NCBI GenBank assembly: GCA_903877385.1
Contig: CAIRDP010000054.1
Span: 1-64,000, forward strand
Direction: 5' to 3'
DNA: 64,000 nt
Source of the DNA: an uncultured Bacteroidales bacterium
Lineage (GTDB): Bacteria; Bacteroidota; Bacteroidia; Bacteroidales; FEN-979
Part shown: piece after piece, positions 4,201 through 55,898 of the stretch
Numbering within the stretch: the stretch's first letter is position 1
How the letters are laid out: the number at the start of each line of letters is the position of its first letter
Made by a program: the position numbers and the translations under genes
Notes under the pieces: generated by a model
Database searches by the model: none
The model's input: only the letters and a program-made list of their open reading frames with translations
Told to the model about the DNA's origin: nothing

Positions 4201-6894
4201 TCAGGATTTTTTCAACAATTTTTTGATCTCGTTGAGTTTCATCAAGGCTTCAACAGGGGTGAGTGTGTTGATCTCGGTATTCAATATATCCTCCTTGATT
4301 TGTTGCAGCAGGGGATCATCAAGCTGGATAAAACTGAGCTGGAAGCCTGCCTCGCCTGATGCTGGATGCGGGATACGGGAAGTTGCATGAAGATTTTTTA
4401 ATCCGGTATCCTGTATCTTGTATCCTGTGCCTGGATTTCCTGTTCCCTGTTTCCCCAGTTCCTCAGCCTGGTGCGACTCTTCAAGCTGGTGAAGGATCTC
4501 TGAAGCCCTGTCAATAACACTGGACGGCATGCCCGCCATTTTTGCTACGTGTATGCCGAAACTGTGTTCGCTCCCTCCCGGCTGTATCTTCCTCAGGAAG
4601 ATCACCCTGTTCTGTATCTCCTTGATTGAGATATGAAAGTTTTTTATCCTGCCGTGGATTGAAGCCATCTCGTTGAGCTCATGGTAATGGGTGGCAAACA
4701 GGACCTTGGGCCTGTGCAGGGGGTGGCTGTGAAGGAACTCGGCAATAGCCCAGGCAATGCTGATCCCGTCGTAGGTGGATGTCCCCCGGCCTATCTCGTC
4801 AAGCAGGATCAGGCTGCGGTTCGAAATATTATTAAGTATGCTGGCCGTTTCATTCATCTCTACCATGAACGTTGATTCCCCCGATGATATGTTGTCGGAA
4901 GCCCCCACCCTGGTGAATATCTTATCAACCAGTCCGATGCTTGCCCTTTCGGCCGGGACAAAACTTCCCATCTGGGCCATCAGGACGATGAGGGCGGTTT
5001 GCCGTAACAGGGCTGACTTACCCGACATATTGGGACCTGTGAGCATGATGATCTGCTGGGAATGGTCATCCAGGTATACATCATTAGCTATATACTCCTC
5101 CCCGGGCTTCATCTGCCTTTCAATTACAGGATGCCGGCCGCTGATGATCTCCAGCTCAAAGGAATCGTTTAGCTGGGGCTTCGTATAAGCATACTTTGAA
5201 GCACTGAGGGCGAACGACCCGAGCACATCCAGCCTTGAAACAAGGTTTGCATTAAGCTGCACCGGGACGATATAATCGTTTACGAACAGCAGGAGGTCGT
5301 TATAGATCCTGGCTTCAAGACCGGCTATCCTTTCTTCGGCATGAAGGATCTTTTCTTCATATTCTTTTAGTTCAGGCGTGATGTACCGTTCGCAATTCAC
5401 AAGGGTTTGTTTTCTCTCCCATTCGGGAGGCACCTTTTCCTTATGGGTGTTCGTAACCTCGAGATAATACCCGAAAACATTGGTATACCCTACTTTCAGC
5501 GAAGTGATGCCGGTGCGCTCCGTCTCCCTTTGCTGTATCTTCACCAGGTAGTCCTTTCCCGAATACGCGATCTGCCTGAGCTCATCCAGTTCGGCATTGA
5601 CACCTTCGCCTATCACATTCCCCTTGGCGGCCAATGCGGGAGGATCGGGATTAAGGTCCCTGCCAATTTTTTCCCTTACCTGCAGGCATAGATTCAGCTG
5701 ATCGGCTGTTTTCTTAAGCCCTTCATTGTCAGCAGAAGTGGCCATGCTTTTAATTGTCTCAACCGAATCAAGGGCCTTCTTCAGGTGAAGCATTTCCCTC
5801 GGCTGGATTTTGCCTACCGCCGCTTTCGATATAAGTCTTTCCAGATCCCCTATAACGGTCAGTTCATGCCTGATCCTGCCTGCCATCTCGGGATTCTGCG
5901 ATAAATATTCTACGATAGCCAGCCTTTCTTCTATCGGCTGAAGGTTTTTCAGGGGAAGTATCATCCAGCGGCGTAGCAGACGGGAGCCCATCGGCGATAC
6001 GGTTTGATCCAGGACATCAAGAAGCGTTCTGGCATTCTCACTGTTGGGCGAAAGCAGTTCCAGGTTACGGATTGTAAACCTGTCGAGCCACATATAATGG
6101 TCTTCCTCTATCCTCGAAAGCCTTGAAATATGAGCCACCTTTTCATGCTGGGTTTCGGCGAGGTAATGAAGTGCCGCACCTGCAGCAATTACCGCCATAT
6201 CGAGGTTCTCAACACCAAAACCTTTTAAGGATGTCGTGCCGAAATGATTCAAAAGAAGTTCATTGGAGAAATCAGGGGTAAACACCCAGTCATCAAATGT
6301 GTTTAAATAAAATTTACTGCCGAAAAGCTCGGTGAATTTCTGTTTTTTGCTTTTCTGAATTATAACCTCACTGGGCCTGAAACTCTGGATCAGCTTGTCA
6401 ATGTATTCCGTCCCTCCCTGGGCCAGGTAAAACTCCCCCGTTGAAATATCCAGGAATGAAATACCCGAGATCCTGGGTTCAAGGTGAACGGAGGCCAGGA
6501 AATTATTTTCTTTCTGTTCGAGTATTTTATCGTGATACGAAACCCCGGGTGTTACTAATTCGGTAACCCCCCTTTTAACAATGGTTTTGGTAAGCTTAGG
6601 ATCTTCCAGCTGATCGCATATTGCTACCCTCAGGCCAGCTTTTACCAGCCTGGGAAGGTACAGGTCAAGCGAATGATGCGGAAAGCCCGCGAGTTCCACA
6701 TAAGTGGCAGCTCCATTGGCCCTCCTGGTGAGGACAATACCAAGGATGCCCGAAGCTTTAACGGCATCTTCCCCGAAAGTCTCATAAAAATCCCCTACCC
6801 TGAACAATAAAAGGGCATCAGGGTATTTGGCTTTGATGGCATTGTATTGCTTCATCAAAGGAGTTTCGGCTATTTCCTTAGCGTTCTGCTTCAT
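4201..6894 (-). CDS. mutS: DNA mismatch repair protein MutS
   Basis: MutS1 clamp that recognises mismatches and recruits MutL. Seen in order: the mismatch-binding FYE motif (RVGDFYETF, about residues 36-38), connector and lever domains, clamp ([24 protein letters not shown]), the ABC ATPase with Walker [10 protein letters not shown] (about 620), signature [13 protein letters not shown], Walker [17 protein letters not shown] and ATHYHEL, then a C-terminal helix-turn-helix region. The ATG at 6894 is preferred over the track's TTG at 6900, giving 897 aa. A TACTTTTG -7 element is at 6950-6943. The linker before the C-terminal domain (about residues 810-845, [17 protein letters not shown]...) is not MutS-like in composition and matches a heptad-repeat DNA insertion (see repeat feature). 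It keeps the frame, so the protein should still function. Confidence 0.97.
4358..4454. repeat. Heptad-repeat element inserted in frame in mutS
   Basis: Two blocks of 7-bp units flank a 19-nt centre. Left block: GATGCTG GATGCGG GATACGG GAAGTTG. Right block: GGTATCC TGTATCT TGTATCC TGTGCCT, then after one extra base TGTTCCC TGTTTCC. The blocks are roughly inverted (GGATAC against GTATCC), so the region could fold as a hairpin. It encodes a Gly/Thr/Pro-rich linker with no family match that I know of. Confidence 0.6.
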
Positions 6895-7004
6895 TAACAA
6901 CTATGACTGCGGATGATATCTTCCCTACCCCCGGCCAGTTTCCAAAAGTACGATTCGCAACGTAATGCCTTGCCCCTTTGTTGAAAAGTAGGCAAAAGAA
7001 TTTT

Positions 7005-7046
7005 GAGCCAAGAGCCAAGAGCCTGGAGCCAAGAACCAAGAGTAAT
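7005..7046. repeat. Heptad tandem repeat upstream of the SpoU methyltransferase
   Basis: Strict 7-bp periodicity: GAGCCAA GAGCCAA GAGCCTG GAGCCAA GAACCAA GAGTAAT. It lies between the divergent mutS and methyltransferase genes, 39 nt upstream of the latter's -7 element. No inverted second arm is clear here. Confidence 0.75.
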
Positions 7047-7100
7047 TCGTTACTCGGGTATTCCTGTTCCTGCTTTAGAATTCCTAACTTTGCTCCTGAT

Positions 7101-7640
7101 ATGAACCTCCGCAAACTTTCCATGTCAGAACTGGGCCGCCTGAGTACCGAAGAATTCAGGACAGCCGGAAAATTTCCCATTGTTGTTGTTCTGGATGATA
7201 TCCGTTCACAGAACAATACAGGCTCGGTATTCAGAACATGCGATGCGTTTAAGGCAGAACAAATCTGCCTCTGCGGAATAACCGCAACTCCCCCTCATCG
7301 CGAAATCCATAAAACCGCCCTTGGGGCCGAAGAATCGGTGAACTGGAAATATTACAACTCGGCTGCTGAAGCTGTAATGGAATTAAAGAAATCGGGTTAC
7401 CTTATCCTGGCCCTGGAACATACAAATTCCAGCCTCCCTCTCCAGGATTATAAAATTCCTTCAGGGCATAAAATCGCCCTGGTCTTTGGCAATGAAATCC
7501 AGGGAGTGGGTGACGAAACTTTAAAACTTGCCGATGCCTGTCTTGAAATCCCCCAGTTCGGGACCAAACATTCCATCAATGTATCTGTAGCTGTTGGGAT
7601 TACATTATGGGAAATACTCAGGAAAATGAAAATAATCTGA
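7101..7640 (+). CDS. SpoU/TrmH-family RNA 2'-O-methyltransferase
   Basis: SPOUT-fold methyltransferase that methylates a ribose 2'-OH in tRNA or rRNA using SAM. Seen: motif 1 DDIRSQNNTGSVFRTCDAF with the N-x-G-S-x-x-R core, motif 2 IALVFGNEIQGV, and motif 3 IPQFGTKHSINVSVAVGI. These three form the deep-knot SAM site. The track ORF begins at 6978, but its first 41 codons translate the heptad repeat. The ATG at 7101 is preceded by the -7 element TAACTTTG (7085-7092), so the mRNA has almost no leader. Mature length is 179 aa, consistent with a minimal TrmH without the N-terminal L30-like domain. The target nucleotide cannot be told. It is divergent from mutS. Confidence 0.9.
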   Translation: MNLRKLSMSELGRLSTEEFRTAGKFPIVVVLDDIRSQNNTGSVFRTCDAFKAEQICLCGITATPPHREIHKTALGAEESVNWKYYNSAAEAVMELKKSGYLILALEHTNSSLPLQDYKIPSGHKIALVFGNEIQGVGDETLKLADACLEIPQFGTKHSINVSVAVGITLWEILRKMKII

Positions 7641-7904: not shown

Positions 7905-10493
7905 ATGAAAAAGTTTTCACGATTACTCTCAAGGGCCGTCATCTTCCTGCTTGCGGTGCTTATCTCGGCAGCTTCCTTTGCCCAGGATAAAAAGCAGGAT
8001 CAAAAGCAGGATCAAAAGAAGGATAAGAAGGAAACGAGTTCCAGGCCCAGCGCAGCAAGCTCATATAGTTATTGGTCTATCGGGCTTTTTGGTGGTCCAA
8101 TGCAGTTTAACGGCGACCTTTCCAAAAATCTGTTATTTAACTTTCGTGAAAAGAATTCCTTAGGTTATAACTATGGTTTGGTGGTAACCAAACAATTTAC
8201 CCGCGTTTTGGGAGTTCGTTTCAGACTTGCACATGGAATGCTCCAAAGCGAAGTAGATGGCAAATATGTATGGAGTTATAATGGAGGCAATGGTACTGCA
8301 GACTTTATCTCCAAAAAATTCATTGCCTATCCCTGGGAAACTGATCTCCAGGCTACAATTAACTGGACGAACTGGATCCTTGGTTACAAACCCGAGAGGC
8401 TTTTTTCGTCGTATTTGATTTTCGGTATCGGCGCAGACCAGACCATCGGGCACAGTACCAATGTTCTTACAGGTGTTGACAACGGGCATGAAGGTCATAA
8501 AAGCGCTTCCGACAACATGGGCAACACCAGCGGTATTGCCGGTAACAATCTTGAATTCAAAGTGGGTGTAGGTCTCGGATTTGACTTCAACATCGACCAG
8601 CATTGGTCAATTCCCATTGAAATTTACTGGAGATGGCGTGATGGCGACATCCTTGATTTGACCCCGGCCGGATCAAAGCAGGTCATCAACGACATGTATT
8701 CATCAGCCACCGTGGGCGTCGCTTACAAATTCGGTTATACCGGCGGCAGCCTCAAGTATATGGAAAAACATTACGGCGAAGTTAAATATGAGACCCAGCC
8801 TCCCGTCCTCAGCGAAAAAGGCGATTCAGTTACAGTTACCATCAAGGGAAATTTCCCGCCGAAATATTTTGCCAAGAAAGCAGCTATGCAGTTCCAGCCG
8901 GTGCTGACTTATGCAGGCGGGCAAACCGACCTGAAAGCCATCAGCCTGAAGGGCGAAAAAGTTACAGGCGACGGAATCCCCGTCAAGTACAAAGAAGGTG
9001 GTTCATTTACTTATACCACAACCTTCCCGTATAAACCTGAGATGAATACCTCTCAGCTCAAAGTCGCTCCTGTTATTTATGAAGCAAAGGAAAAGACATA
9101 TGCCAAGAAGGAAGAGATCAAGGAAAAAGTGAAATTCATCGAACTTCCCAGCCGCGATCTCGTACCGGGTGTTATTTATACCCCCACCCGCATCATTCCT
9201 GACCAGGCTGCCCTGATTGCCGACCATGGCTATCAGAAAGAAGTCATCGTAAGCAAGACCGGAGCCGTTTATTTCAAGAAAAACAAATTTGACCTCGATC
9301 TTAAATATGGTATCAACAAAACTGATGCAGGAAAAGCCGGCCTCTCCGAAGTGGCCAGTTTCATACACCAGGGATGGAAGATCAAGAGTATCGATATGAA
9401 TGGTTGGGCATCGCCCGAAGGTGAAGAAACCTTTAATGCAGGACTTTCAGAAAACCGTTCAAAGACAGGTCAGAAATGGATGATCGATCAATACAAGGAT
9501 TGGGCTAAAGTAGCTAATAAGGACAATAAGGATAAGAAAGCCGTAAAAGCAGCTATCGAAGCAGCCGGTAAAGATGTGAACATGCCTCTTGCACATCATG
9601 GTCCCGATTGGAATGGCTTCCTTAAAGCAGTCCAGAACTCTGATCTGAAAGACAAGGATAAAATCCTGAATGTCGTCAACTCAGCCGCTGATCCTAAAAA
9701 GAAAGAACAGGAAATCCGCAATATGATCCTGATCTATCCCCAGATCGAAGAAAAACTTCTGCCCCCCTTACGTCGTTGTGAAGTTACTGCCAACCTGTAT
9801 GAGCCGCGTTTCACCGACGAAGAACTCAGCAAGTATGCAGTTTCCGATCCTTCCAAACTTAAGGTTGAAGAACTTCTCTATGCCGCAACCCTCACCAATG
9901 ATCCTGCAACAAAACTTACCATTTATGACAATGCTGCAAAACAGTATCCCAATAACTGGAAAGCTTTGAACAATGCAGCTGCCGCAAATATCGTAAAAGG
10001 CAATTATGCCAAAGCCAGTGATTACCTCACTAAAGCCCAGGGTATTGCCCCGAACAACGGCCTTATCGAAAACAACATTGGTGTTGTTGCTGCCAAACTG
10101 AAGGATTACAAGAAAGCTGATGCCCAGTTTAAGAAAGCTCAGCAGCTTGGCGAAAAAGAAGGTTACAACCTTGGTATTTATGAAATCCCGAAGGGTAATT
10201 ATACAAAGGCCCTCAGTATGCTTGGTGATGCAAAATGCAACTACAACTTAGGCCTTGCCCAGCTGGTCTCCGGTAATAACAGCGCTGCTGAAGCCACTCT
10301 TAAGTGCGCTCCCCAGACTCCGGAAACATTCTACCTCCTCGCCATCGTTGGTGCACGTACAAACAACAGCAAGATGTTGTACGAATACCTGATGAAAGCC
10401 TGCCAGGATTCAAACCTGAAATCTCAGGCCAAGGGCGACCGTGAATTCTATAGCTTCGCAAATACTCCTGAATTCCAGAATATCGTGAAGTAA
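7905..10493 (+). CDS. Outer-membrane beta-barrel / OmpA-like / TPR protein
   Basis: 862 aa. A signal peptide (MKKFSRLLSRAVIFLLAVLISAASFAQ) is followed by a Lys/Gln/Asp linker (KKQDQKQDQKKDKK) and an N-terminal beta-barrel domain (about 50-285, aromatic alternating strands ending in VGVAYKFGY). Next comes an all-beta middle domain (about 295-425), then an OmpA-like peptidoglycan-binding domain with INGWASPEGEE-type sequence (IDMNGWASPEGEETFNAGLSENRS, about 490-520), and C-terminal TPR units (about 660-850; NNWKALNNAAAANIVKGNYAKA, NNGLIENNIGVVAAKLKDYKKA). It probably anchors the outer membrane to peptidoglycan and scaffolds an envelope complex through the TPRs. The long intergenic AT-rich promoter and clean terminator suggest a strongly expressed single gene. 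The partner proteins are unknown. Confidence 0.8.
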   Translation: MKKFSRLLSRAVIFLLAVLISAASFAQDKKQDQKQDQKKDKKETSSRPSAASSYSYWSIGLFGGPMQFNGDLSKNLLFNFREKNSLGYNYGLVVTKQFTRVLGVRFRLAHGMLQSEVDGKYVWSYNGGNGTADFISKKFIAYPWETDLQATINWTNWILGYKPERLFSSYLIFGIGADQTIGHSTNVLTGVDNGHEGHKSASDNMGNTSGIAGNNLEFKVGVGLGFDFNIDQHWSIPIEIYWRWRDGDILDLTPAGSKQVINDMYSSATVGVAYKFGYTGGSLKYMEKHYGEVKYETQPPVLSEKGDSVTVTIKGNFPPKYFAKKAAMQFQPVLTYAGGQTDLKAISLKGEKVTGDGIPVKYKEGGSFTYTTTFPYKPEMNTSQLKVAPVIYEAKEKTYAKKEEIKEKVKFIELPSRDLVPGVIYTPTRIIPDQAALIADHGYQKEVIVSKTGAVYFKKNKFDLDLKYGINKTDAGKAGLSEVASFIHQGWKIKSIDMNGWASPEGEETFNAGLSENRSKTGQKWMIDQYKDWAKVANKDNKDKKAVKAAIEAAGKDVNMPLAHHGPDWNGFLKAVQNSDLKDKDKILNVVNSAADPKKKEQEIRNMILIYPQIEEKLLPPLRRCEVTANLYEPRFTDEELSKYAVSDPSKLKVEELLYAATLTNDPATKLTIYDNAAKQYPNNWKALNNAAAANIVKGNYAKASDYLTKAQGIAPNNGLIENNIGVVAAKLKDYKKADAQFKKAQQLGEKEGYNLGIYEIPKGNYTKALSMLGDAKCNYNLGLAQLVSGNNSAAEATLKCAPQTPETFYLLAIVGARTNNSKMLYEYLMKACQDSNLKSQAKGDREFYSFANTPEFQNIVK

Positions 10494-53932: not shown

Positions 53933-54808
53933 TTATTTTCTTGCCCCCCGTTTTTTAAACAGGTTGATCAGTGGTTTTACATAATCCTGGTCGGTCCTGA
54001 TCTTCACCCAGTCGACACCGCTTCTAAGAAAGGTATCATTAAGAAAAGCCTGGTGGTCGTCGTTCCGTTTCTTAAAATAGGCTCTCTGCCTGAAATCGGA
54101 TGAATCAATCCATTGCTGAACCCCTGATTCCGCATCTTTCACCCTGATCATCCCCACATCCGGGAGGTTTGTTTCCCTCTCATCAAAGATCTGCACTGCA
54201 ATCAAGTCATGCTTTTTGTTCGCTATTTTTATGGCATCCACAAAACCGTGGTCAATAAAATCGGAGATGACAAAGGTTGTACAACGCTTTTTAATCGCGT
54301 TTGTAAGGAACCTCAGGGGTTCTGTAAGGTTTGTACCCTTTTGCTGAGGCCTGAAATCAACAAGCTCCCTTATGATCCTGAGTATATGGGAGGGGCCTTT
54401 TTTGGGCGGGATGAATTTTTCGATGATGTCGCTGAAAAAGATCACCCCTACCTTATCGTTGTTCTGTATGGCGCTGAATGCAAGCACGGCTGCTATCTCG
54501 GTGATAAGTTCTTCTTTCAGGGTTTTACGGGTGCCGAAGTGGTTGGATCCGCTCACATCGATCATGATCATCACGGTCAGCTCCCTTTCTTCATCAAATA
54601 TTTTGATATAAGGGTGGTTGAAACGGGCGGTCACATTCCAGTCAATATTCCTGATATCGTCACCAAACTGGTATTCTCTCACTTCGCTGAAGGCCATGCC
54701 TCTCCCTTTAAAGACTGAGTGGTACTGTCCCGAGAAAATCTGGTTCGACAGACCCCTGGTCTTTATTTCGATCTTTCTGACCTTTTTAAAGAGTTCGGCT
54801 GATTCCAT
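53933..54808 (-). CDS. DUF58 domain protein of the Bat operon
   Basis: 291 aa, cytoplasmic (no signal). DUF58 signature: RGMAFSEVREYQFGDDIRNIDWNVTARFNHPYIKIFDEERELTVMIMIDVSGSNHFG, including the VWA-like MIDAS DVSGS. Always encoded with a MoxR AAA ATPase; the pair is thought to act as a chaperone-like ATPase module for VWA proteins. It starts 68 nt after moxR; that gap is almost entirely heptad repeats. Confidence 0.9.
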   Translation of the reverse strand: MESAELFKKVRKIEIKTRGLSNQIFSGQYHSVFKGRGMAFSEVREYQFGDDIRNIDWNVTARFNHPYIKIFDEERELTVMIMIDVSGSNHFGTRKTLKEELITEIAAVLAFSAIQNNDKVGVIFFSDIIEKFIPPKKGPSHILRIIRELVDFRPQQKGTNLTEPLRFLTNAIKKRCTTFVISDFIDHGFVDAIKIANKKHDLIAVQIFDERETNLPDVGMIRVKDAESGVQQWIDSSDFRQRAYFKKRNDDHQAFLNDTFLRSGVDWVKIRTDQDYVKPLINLFKKRGARK

Positions 54809-54814
54809 AGAATT

Positions 54815-54870
54815 GTGACTGGTGACTGGTGACTAGTGACTGTTCACCAGTCACTGTTCACTGTTTACTG
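54815..54870. repeat. Eight-unit heptad repeat in the Bat operon
   Basis: GTGACTG GTGACTG GTGACTA GTGACTG TTCACCA GTCACTG TTCACTG TTTACTG with no break in the 7-bp register. Units 1-4 and 5-8 are roughly inverted (CTGGTGAC against GTTCACCAG), so the block can fold back. It fills 56 of the 68 nt between the moxR stop and the DUF58 start and will therefore be in the operon mRNA. Confidence 0.9.
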
Positions 54871-54876
54871 ATTCGG

Positions 54877-55869
54877 TTATGGTACTTCTACCGTATTTAA
54901 AATCTCGTTAATGATGTCTTCGGATGTGATGTTCTCCGCTTCGGCTTCGTAGGTTAGCCCGATGCGGTGGCGCATTACGTCGTGAGCAACAGCACGGATA
55001 TCTTCAGGAATAACGTACCCGCGGCGTTTTATAAATGCATACGCTTTGGATGCCAGCGCAAGGTAGATACTTGCCCTTGGTGAACCCCCGTAACTGATCA
55101 GTCCCTCGAATTTCTTGAGCTTATAATCGGCCGGGAAACGCGACGCAAAAACAATATCCGTGATATAGTTCTCTATTTTTTCATCAAGGTAAACTTCCCT
55201 TGCAACAGCTCTTGCCCTGAGAATGTCGACAGGCTTGATAATGGTGTTTGCCATGGCAATTTCATTGCTGATATTCTGGCGGATGATCAGTTTCTCCTCT
55301 TTCTTATCGGGATAATTGATGATCACTTTCAGCATGAAACGGTCGACCTGTGCTTCGGGCAGAGGGTAAGTACCTTCCTGCTCAATAGGGTTCTCGGTAG
55401 CAAGAACCAAAAAGGGCTCGGGCAACATGAACGTTTGATCACCTATGGTAACCTGCCTTTCCTGCATTGCTTCCAGCAGCGCACTCTGGACCTTGGCCGG
55501 GGAACGGTTTATTTCATCCGCCAGGATAAAATTGGCGAAAATAGGCCCCTTACGAACCTGGAATTCCTCCTTCTTCTGGCTGTAAACCAGGGTCCCGACA
55601 AGGTCGGCTGGCAAAAGGTCAGGGGTGAACTGAATACGGCTGAATTTTGCCTCGATTGTACTAGCCAGGGTTTTAATGGCCAGGGTTTTTGCCAGCCCGG
55701 GAACTCCTTCAAGGAGGATATGCCCGTTCGCCAGCAAACCGATCAGGAGGCGTTCAATCATATGTTTCTGACCAATGATCACTTTATGCATTTCCATGGT
55801 GATCATATCCACGAAAGCGCTTTCCCTTTGGATCCGCTCATTCAGGGCTTTAATATCCGTCTCAACCAT
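54877..55869 (-). CDS. moxR: MoxR-type AAA ATPase
   Basis: 330 aa from the ATG at 55869 (track start 55893). MoxR signatures: Walker A GVPGLAKTLAIKTLA, sensor/Walker B ILADEINRSPAKVQSALLEAMQERQVTIGD, ATENPIEQEGTYPLPEAQVDRFML, arginine-finger region and a C-terminal lid helix domain. First gene of the Bat operon; it should energise the DUF58 and VWA partners. A -7 element TACATTTG lies at 55898-55891, 22 nt upstream of the start. Confidence 0.95.
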   Translation of the reverse strand: MVETDIKALNERIQRESAFVDMITMEMHKVIIGQKHMIERLLIGLLANGHILLEGVPGLAKTLAIKTLASTIEAKFSRIQFTPDLLPADLVGTLVYSQKKEEFQVRKGPIFANFILADEINRSPAKVQSALLEAMQERQVTIGDQTFMLPEPFLVLATENPIEQEGTYPLPEAQVDRFMLKVIINYPDKKEEKLIIRQNISNEIAMANTIIKPVDILRARAVAREVYLDEKIENYITDIVFASRFPADYKLKKFEGLISYGGSPRASIYLALASKAYAFIKRRGYVIPEDIRAVAHDVMRHRIGLTYEAEAENITSEDIINEILNTVEVP

Positions 55870-55890
55870 ATATGTAAAAATTTGATGCTG

Positions 55891-55898
55891 CAAATGTA
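55891..55898 (-). promoter_or_regulatory. -7 element of the moxR-bat operon
   Basis: Minus strand TACATTTG, matching TAnnTTTG; no exact TTTG at 19 nt. Only the -7 half is convincing. Confidence 0.55.

Follow-up and report, generated by a model that had tools for sequence, protein, structure and literature searches.

A heptamer array in a moxR-DUF58 linker of a Bacteroidales genome, read as a probable gene-less copy of an S23/IVP insertion element

The array in the moxR-DUF58 linker

The window, a 64,000 nt stretch of DNA from an uncultured Bacteroidales bacterium, carries on its minus strand a moxR gene followed by a DUF58/VWA gene, a 329-aa ORF and a BatA/VWA gene. The linker between moxR and DUF58 is largely filled by a short repeat array, and two further period-7 arrays lie at or near mutS:

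54877-55893, minus strand: moxR (AAA_3 ATPase, E = 4e-66), the upstream neighbour, whose stop codon borders the array
54809-54876, minus strand: moxR-DUF58 linker, 68 nt, at which relatives have other arrays or a complete S23 element
54843-54870, plus strand: second half of the array, TTCACCA GTCACTG TTCACTG TTTACTG (from sequence, TRF and fold)
54815-54842, plus strand: first half of the array, four G-rich GTGACT(G/A) units (from sequence and TRF)
53933-54808, minus strand: DUF58/VWA gene (PF01882, E = 3e-76), the downstream neighbour, with its ATG 6 nt from the array
7005-7041, plus strand: third period-7 array (GAGCCAA), in the N-terminal part of a 220-aa ORF (6978-7640)
4201-6900, minus strand: mutS
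4358-4432, no strand assigned: gene-less array of GATGCGG units followed by inverted ATCCTGT, in frame near the mutS C-terminus

Of the 68 nt that separate the moxR stop codon (54877) from the DUF58 start (54808), outside any rRNA gene, the linker array takes up 56. It consists of eight in-phase 7-bp units at 54815-54870 (GTGACTG GTGACTG GTGACTA GTGACTG TTCACCA GTCACTG TTCACTG TTTACTG), and the initial annotation, which claimed eight units in perfect register, had written the sequence exactly as it is. Tandem repeats were matched by TRF at 54815-54842 (period 7, 4.0 copies, 90%) and at 54839-54870 (4.6 copies, 72%). On the mRNA (minus) strand, the second half forms a purine arm after the moxR stop codon (GTAAACA GTGAACA GTGACTG GTGAACA), and the first half a pyrimidine arm adjoining the DUF58 start. 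The second half had been described as close to the reverse complement of the first; the halves are indeed inverted, but the match is imperfect, with 17/26 bases pairing at the best long offset. The hairpin proposed for the linker was borne out by folding of the mRNA strand, which reached -23.9 kcal/mol (z = -5.5 versus dinucleotide shuffles). There is no ORF in the array, the GTGACTG units lack a GGG run, and no close empty ortholog of the site was found.

Related arrays across the genome and their turnover

Array statistics were collected over 864 kb of stretches from the 4.30-Mb genome and supplemented with pattern searches. These stretches contained 46 lag-7 arrays (score at least 11) and 14 lag-8 arrays, against 1 and 2 in Markov shuffles, and lags 5, 6, 9, 10 and 11 gave 0-4 arrays each (0-2 at each lag in the shuffles). 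With a lag-7 score of 22, the window array is thus not a product of chance, and the further members of a repeat family that had been anticipated in this genome are numerous. The arrays usually have a G-rich half followed by a C-rich half, and their unit families include GATGCRG, GTACATT, TGGGTAC, GAATATY, GTGACTR, GACTGCC and AAATAGCG. Additional GTGACTG arrays are located in holB (C61:70283-70324) and at the end of a 403-aa gene (C67:45462-45489), with a weaker one at C18:6777. GATGCRG arrays numbered 131 in this genome and 24-759 in same-genus genomes, against 0-31 across the remaining genera of the family and 0-2 in genomes from other families; a reversed-pattern control gave 0 in all but two genomes.

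When polarity was counted by G/C skew, leaving out palindromic units (e.g. GTACAT), a G-rich array had its partner on the downstream side 14 times, on the upstream side 3 times and on both sides 3 times, i.e. downstream in 14/17 one-sided arrays. Intergenic arrays were found between co-directional (20), convergent (10) and divergent (1) genes, compared with a background of 199/57/94 from crude ORF calls, so that divergent gene pairs account for 1/31 intergenic arrays versus 94/350 intergenic spaces. Many arrays begin no more than about 20 nt from an ORF end, and 21 are inside ORFs. In two neighbouring long ORFs (L073:5054-5103 and 8230-8344), the stretch between 'GSVTI' and 'NIKVSV' is occupied by heptamer arrays that differ from one ORF to the other; judging from a sequence motif alone, the two ORFs are probably paralogous sensor kinases. 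A composite repeat, in which GATGCGG arrays and palindromes (e.g. GGGCAACGCTTCGCGTTGCC and GGGCACTTCGCGCC) follow each other in alternation, is found at L051:1-130 and L043:15230-15280.

At the moxR-DUF58 site, the flanking proteins are conserved within the genus (MoxR 93-96% and DUF58 87-95% identical), and the linkers hold arrays of GTGAACA, GCGAAAA or GTGATCC (period 7), or of GTGAAATG or GCGAAATA (period 8). In some species pairs the linker arrays seem to be inherited from a common ancestor and to have changed in copy number, and in other pairs they differ in period. Unit, period and copy number therefore vary between relatives, and the invariant descent which the initial annotation had named as a refutation of its reading is not what the linkers display. 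The arrays of the HolB loop and of the MutS C-terminal linker vary likewise between same-genus species, remaining in frame; the convergent heptamer array of the latter (4358-4432 in the window) is different in every one of these species. In holB, which encodes the delta' subunit, a 120-nt in-frame insert with two convergent array types (L045:10286-10410, equal to G000:C61:70283-70410) sits at the boundary of the zinc motif and differs in each same-genus species. Most other families have 15 nt (5 aa) at this site. In the loop of other genera belonging to the family (L089, L093 and L096), different palindromic repeats are present, of the CCCCCTAAAGGGGG type ('PPNPLKG...KSPLGDLGV') and the CTCCTTCGCGGGGAGAGC type.

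S23 genes between inverted arrays

Among 80 named relatives, eight moxR-DUF58 linkers (L170, L181, L182, L188, L191, L199, L207 and L213), all from Bacteroidota more distant than the same-genus species, were 513-631 nt long, and each contained an ORF of 109-133 aa flanked by inverted 7/8-bp arrays. All eight ORFs matched PF05635 (S23 / 23S_rRNA_IVP) with E-values from 8e-13 to 5e-33, as did every ORF of at least 80 aa in the linkers of these relatives. The family, which has solved relatives in 2rld and 2gsc, is homologous to Avd of diversity-generating retroelements (PMC10053308), and was present in 53/61 genomes searched and in 0/14 control genomes. The association with arrays was quantified by scoring the complementarity of the 180 bp upstream and downstream of a gene, with a cut-off of at least 12 and with downstream flanks exchanged between loci as control. 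For 28 S23 genes from relatives the mean score was 24.4, versus 9.4 for swapped flanks, and 86% versus 11% reached the cut-off. Complementary flanks were found for 1/93 other small ORFs of this genome. Two S23 genes of the genome itself were checked, one of which (L254) lacks arrays.

A second line of evidence comes from the S23 gene located between nuoJ and nuoK in this genome (C47), which scored 31.7 bits with PF05635, just below the 33.8 cut-off. The ends of this element read GAATATC-GAATATT-GATCAAC-GAAT, and an 18-mer taken from them occurs 38 times genome-wide, with 0 occurrences of a reversed control. The copies are mostly gene-less hairpins of about 100 bp directly behind stop codons, which keep the off-consensus unit GATCAAC. 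Since this unit is common to the approximately 36 copies of the GAATATT family, along with the ends of the S23 element, the sequences point to dispersal of the copies rather than independent slippage.

Plasmids offered a comparison of occupied and unoccupied sites. Nearly all plasmid-borne S23 genes are cyanobacterial, and inverted heptamer flanks were present in 7/10 of the cyanobacterial ones (swapped flanks reach a score of 12 in 9%). Trichormus plasmid C has an element at a stop codon in the arrangement AAAAA-GTAAT-[element]-GTAAT-TAACAAA, while the same site in Nostoc linckia, Microchaete and N. carneum reads AAAAAGTAATTAACAAA. The difference from Nostoc linckia is 429 bp with a 5-bp GTAAT duplication, read from the alignment of sister plasmids, and this is the sole junction with clean ends and a direct duplication. 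No array of any kind is present at the empty site, and a relic with an internal deletion is found at the corresponding position in Nostoc C052 pE. A second plasmid site is occupied in N. edaphicum by an S23 gene with GGGAACA arrays, is empty in Nostoc C057 and contains gene-less convergent arrays in Nostoc ATCC 53789. Filled and empty states with blurred ends were also seen in Calothrix, Picosynechococcus and Aulosira pairs. Some cyanobacterial S23 genes are located in CRISPR operons (L289, L293 and L295), in the cas6-cas4 and cas10-cmr3 gaps; in Dolichospermum UHCC 0315A (L307:330-577), an unrelated hairpin with GTAGGTTGGGTT...AACCCAACCTAC ends replaces the cas6-cas4 S23 element of Anabaena sp. 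90.

The link between the arrays and S23 elements is well supported by these data, and lay beyond what the initial annotation could see from the sequence. Its suggestion of a selfish short repeat family resembling the heptameric STRRs nevertheless pointed in the right direction, given the many arrays, the variable linker and the co-occurring S23 genes. We read the window array as a copy of a small S23/IVP insertion element that has no gene, forms a hairpin and is tolerated in the operon, and put the probability of this reading at roughly 0.6. A complete element of about 0.42-0.63 kb would consist of a left G-rich array of 7- or 8-bp units, a gene for the four-helix-bundle S23/IVP protein (PF05635) and a right array in reverse complement; elements of the kind are located immediately after stop codons, within operon linkers or in permissive protein loops. 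The window copy would be co-transcribed with moxR and DUF58 as a short imperfect hairpin, tolerated but not needed, and its ancestor was presumably an element with an S23 gene. This genome yielded no S23 gene whose ends are of the GTGACTG type, and the nearest parent-like cases are GTGAC-type units around S23 in G016 (L237) and in Anabaena sp. 90 (L293). S23 may act on the arrays in trans and bind to their units, the element is presumably mobile, and the hairpin RNA could, by analogy with 23S rRNA intervening sequences (IVS), be cut by RNase III. We know of no transposase activity of S23 proteins, and a trans-acting partner must therefore be assumed.

Knowledge of S23/IVP proteins goes back to the 1990s and to 23S rRNA IVS, and the long-described heptamer repeats in Cyanobacteria, Xanthomonas and Bacteroidota have lacked a vehicle; arrays serving as the ends of S23 insertions would unite both problems, suggesting that two features of bacterial genomes which have long gone unexplained share one origin. 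They would also explain the odd linker peptides in HolB and MutS of these metagenome-assembled genomes, would make the moxR-DUF58 spacing a tolerated insertion site instead of a conserved switch, and would provide array oligonucleotides as a testable substrate for the S23 family, which has no assigned function. A wider proposal, which we offer as tentative and hold with rather less than even confidence, is that of a widespread class of mobile elements which have no transposase, encode S23/IVP (Avd-like) as sole protein and are recognised by their ends, the convergent 7/8-bp arrays. The 23S rRNA IVS, the cyanobacterial heptamers and the convergent heptamers of Xanthomonas would then be its landing sites or gene-less forms, and each S23 protomer would bind one unit, amounting to a new mobility mechanism.

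Alternative readings and known systems

The main rival, which we consider unlikely but worth serious attention, holds that the arrays came first: 7/8-bp hairpin arrays would arise and be replaced by replication slippage and template switching at tolerated sites, with S23 genes later inserting into them or recombining between them. S23 genes number 1-5 per genome in this genus and are far outnumbered by arrays, as this order of events would predict, and at holB, at mutS and in the DUF58 linker the unit and copy number of the arrays shift gradually along what seems to be a shared line of descent. Independent slippage would not, however, yield some 36 GAATATT copies with a common off-consensus unit and S23 element ends, which also led us to reject a simple slippage microsatellite as a full account. 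Array-free empty sites, as at the Trichormus-type plasmid site, disfavour an origin of the arrays before the S23 genes.

Less probable still is a selected RNA device, by which the linker hairpin would tune moxR versus DUF58 through attenuation, mRNA stability or DUF58 translation; the first two of these roles had been put forward by the initial annotation. Same-genus linkers mostly form strong hairpins (z down to -8.6) at a conserved position, in line with such a device, but several linkers of the neighbouring genus g3 have the pyrimidine half only and no hairpin (MFE about 0), and the linker is nearly absent from L029 and L149 (1-base gene overlap) and from L033 (4 nt). Neither structure nor sequence is conserved, the same arrays are also present within holB, mutS and other long ORFs, and no Rfam family matched the linker at gathering score. 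Attenuation and mRNA stability are thus not supported as explanations, and a conserved regulatory RNA hairpin was rejected.

We regard as very improbable that the array is a REP-type element moved by a RAYT/Y1 transposase, or the product of a telomerase-like reverse transcriptase. Each of eight same-genus genomes does have exactly one Y1_Tnp gene, and convergent polarity would suit 3'-end extension at a break. The Y1 transposase-like gene of this genome (G000:C67:140848-141192, or L058:848-1192), which is a single copy in all eight and apparently vertically kept, has no arrays visible by eye around it, and RVT_1 is absent from the array-rich sister genomes G001-G006, leading us to reject both the RAYT/REP reading and reverse-transcriptase addition at both 3' ends of a break. 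A G-quadruplex function of the kind put forward for GGGAATC heptamers (Rehm et al. 2015, PMC4692102) is the most remote of the alternatives, since despite similar layout rules and convergent pairs the GTGACTG units have no three-G runs and units swap freely between species, many of them lacking G-tracts.

The preferred reading, that of a gene-less S23/IVP element copy, was compared with four known systems. The TAACTGA heptamers of Beggiatoaceae, Cyanobacteria and some Bacteroidetes (MacGregor 2015, PMC4679880) are likewise intergenic arrays, often adjoining start codons, with a patchy distribution for which horizontal transfer without a known vehicle was suspected. They differ in being one fixed unit in mostly direct repeats, and the text of that study reports no S23 association (PMC4679880). 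The arrays resemble MITEs as short, multi-copy, ORF-less sequences with inverted ends, which in the GAATATT family are common to a gene-bearing element, but these ends are tandem arrays with a changing unit, and the parent encodes S23 and not a known transposase.

The 23S rRNA IVS with an S23p ORF, for instance in Coxiella, have been described as selfish and of unclear origin (PMC4990558). Like the arrays, they are short elements whose ends are complementary (window fold z = -5.5), with an S23/IVP ORF in complete copies. RNase III excises IVS from the rRNA, in whose helices they are located, whereas the arrays described here are located in mRNA linkers and have heptamer/octamer ends. As the window copy is neither within rRNA nor provided with an ORF, membership of the IVS family is not claimed for it, and it is best explained as an IVS-like element within an mRNA linker.

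Xanthomonas and Nostoc provide a precedent in layout with their convergent G-rich heptamers (Rehm et al. 2015, PMC4692102), which mostly have about four units per array and form 70-75 convergent pairs per Xanthomonas genome. They are found between aligned ORFs and rarely between divergent ones, are G-rich on the coding strand after stop codons and on the non-coding strand before start codons, and showed no general association with mobile elements (PMC4692102). The arrays of this genome are similarly tandem 7-bp units in convergent G-rich pairs that are rare between divergent ORFs, but unlike the Rehm heptamers they flank S23 genes, include units without G-tracts as well as 8-bp units, and show fast unit turnover. 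No earlier report of an association between arrays and S23 was found in the literature covered, which lacked most subscription journals; convergent heptamer arrays were already known (Rehm et al. 2015), and their link to S23 elements appears to be new.
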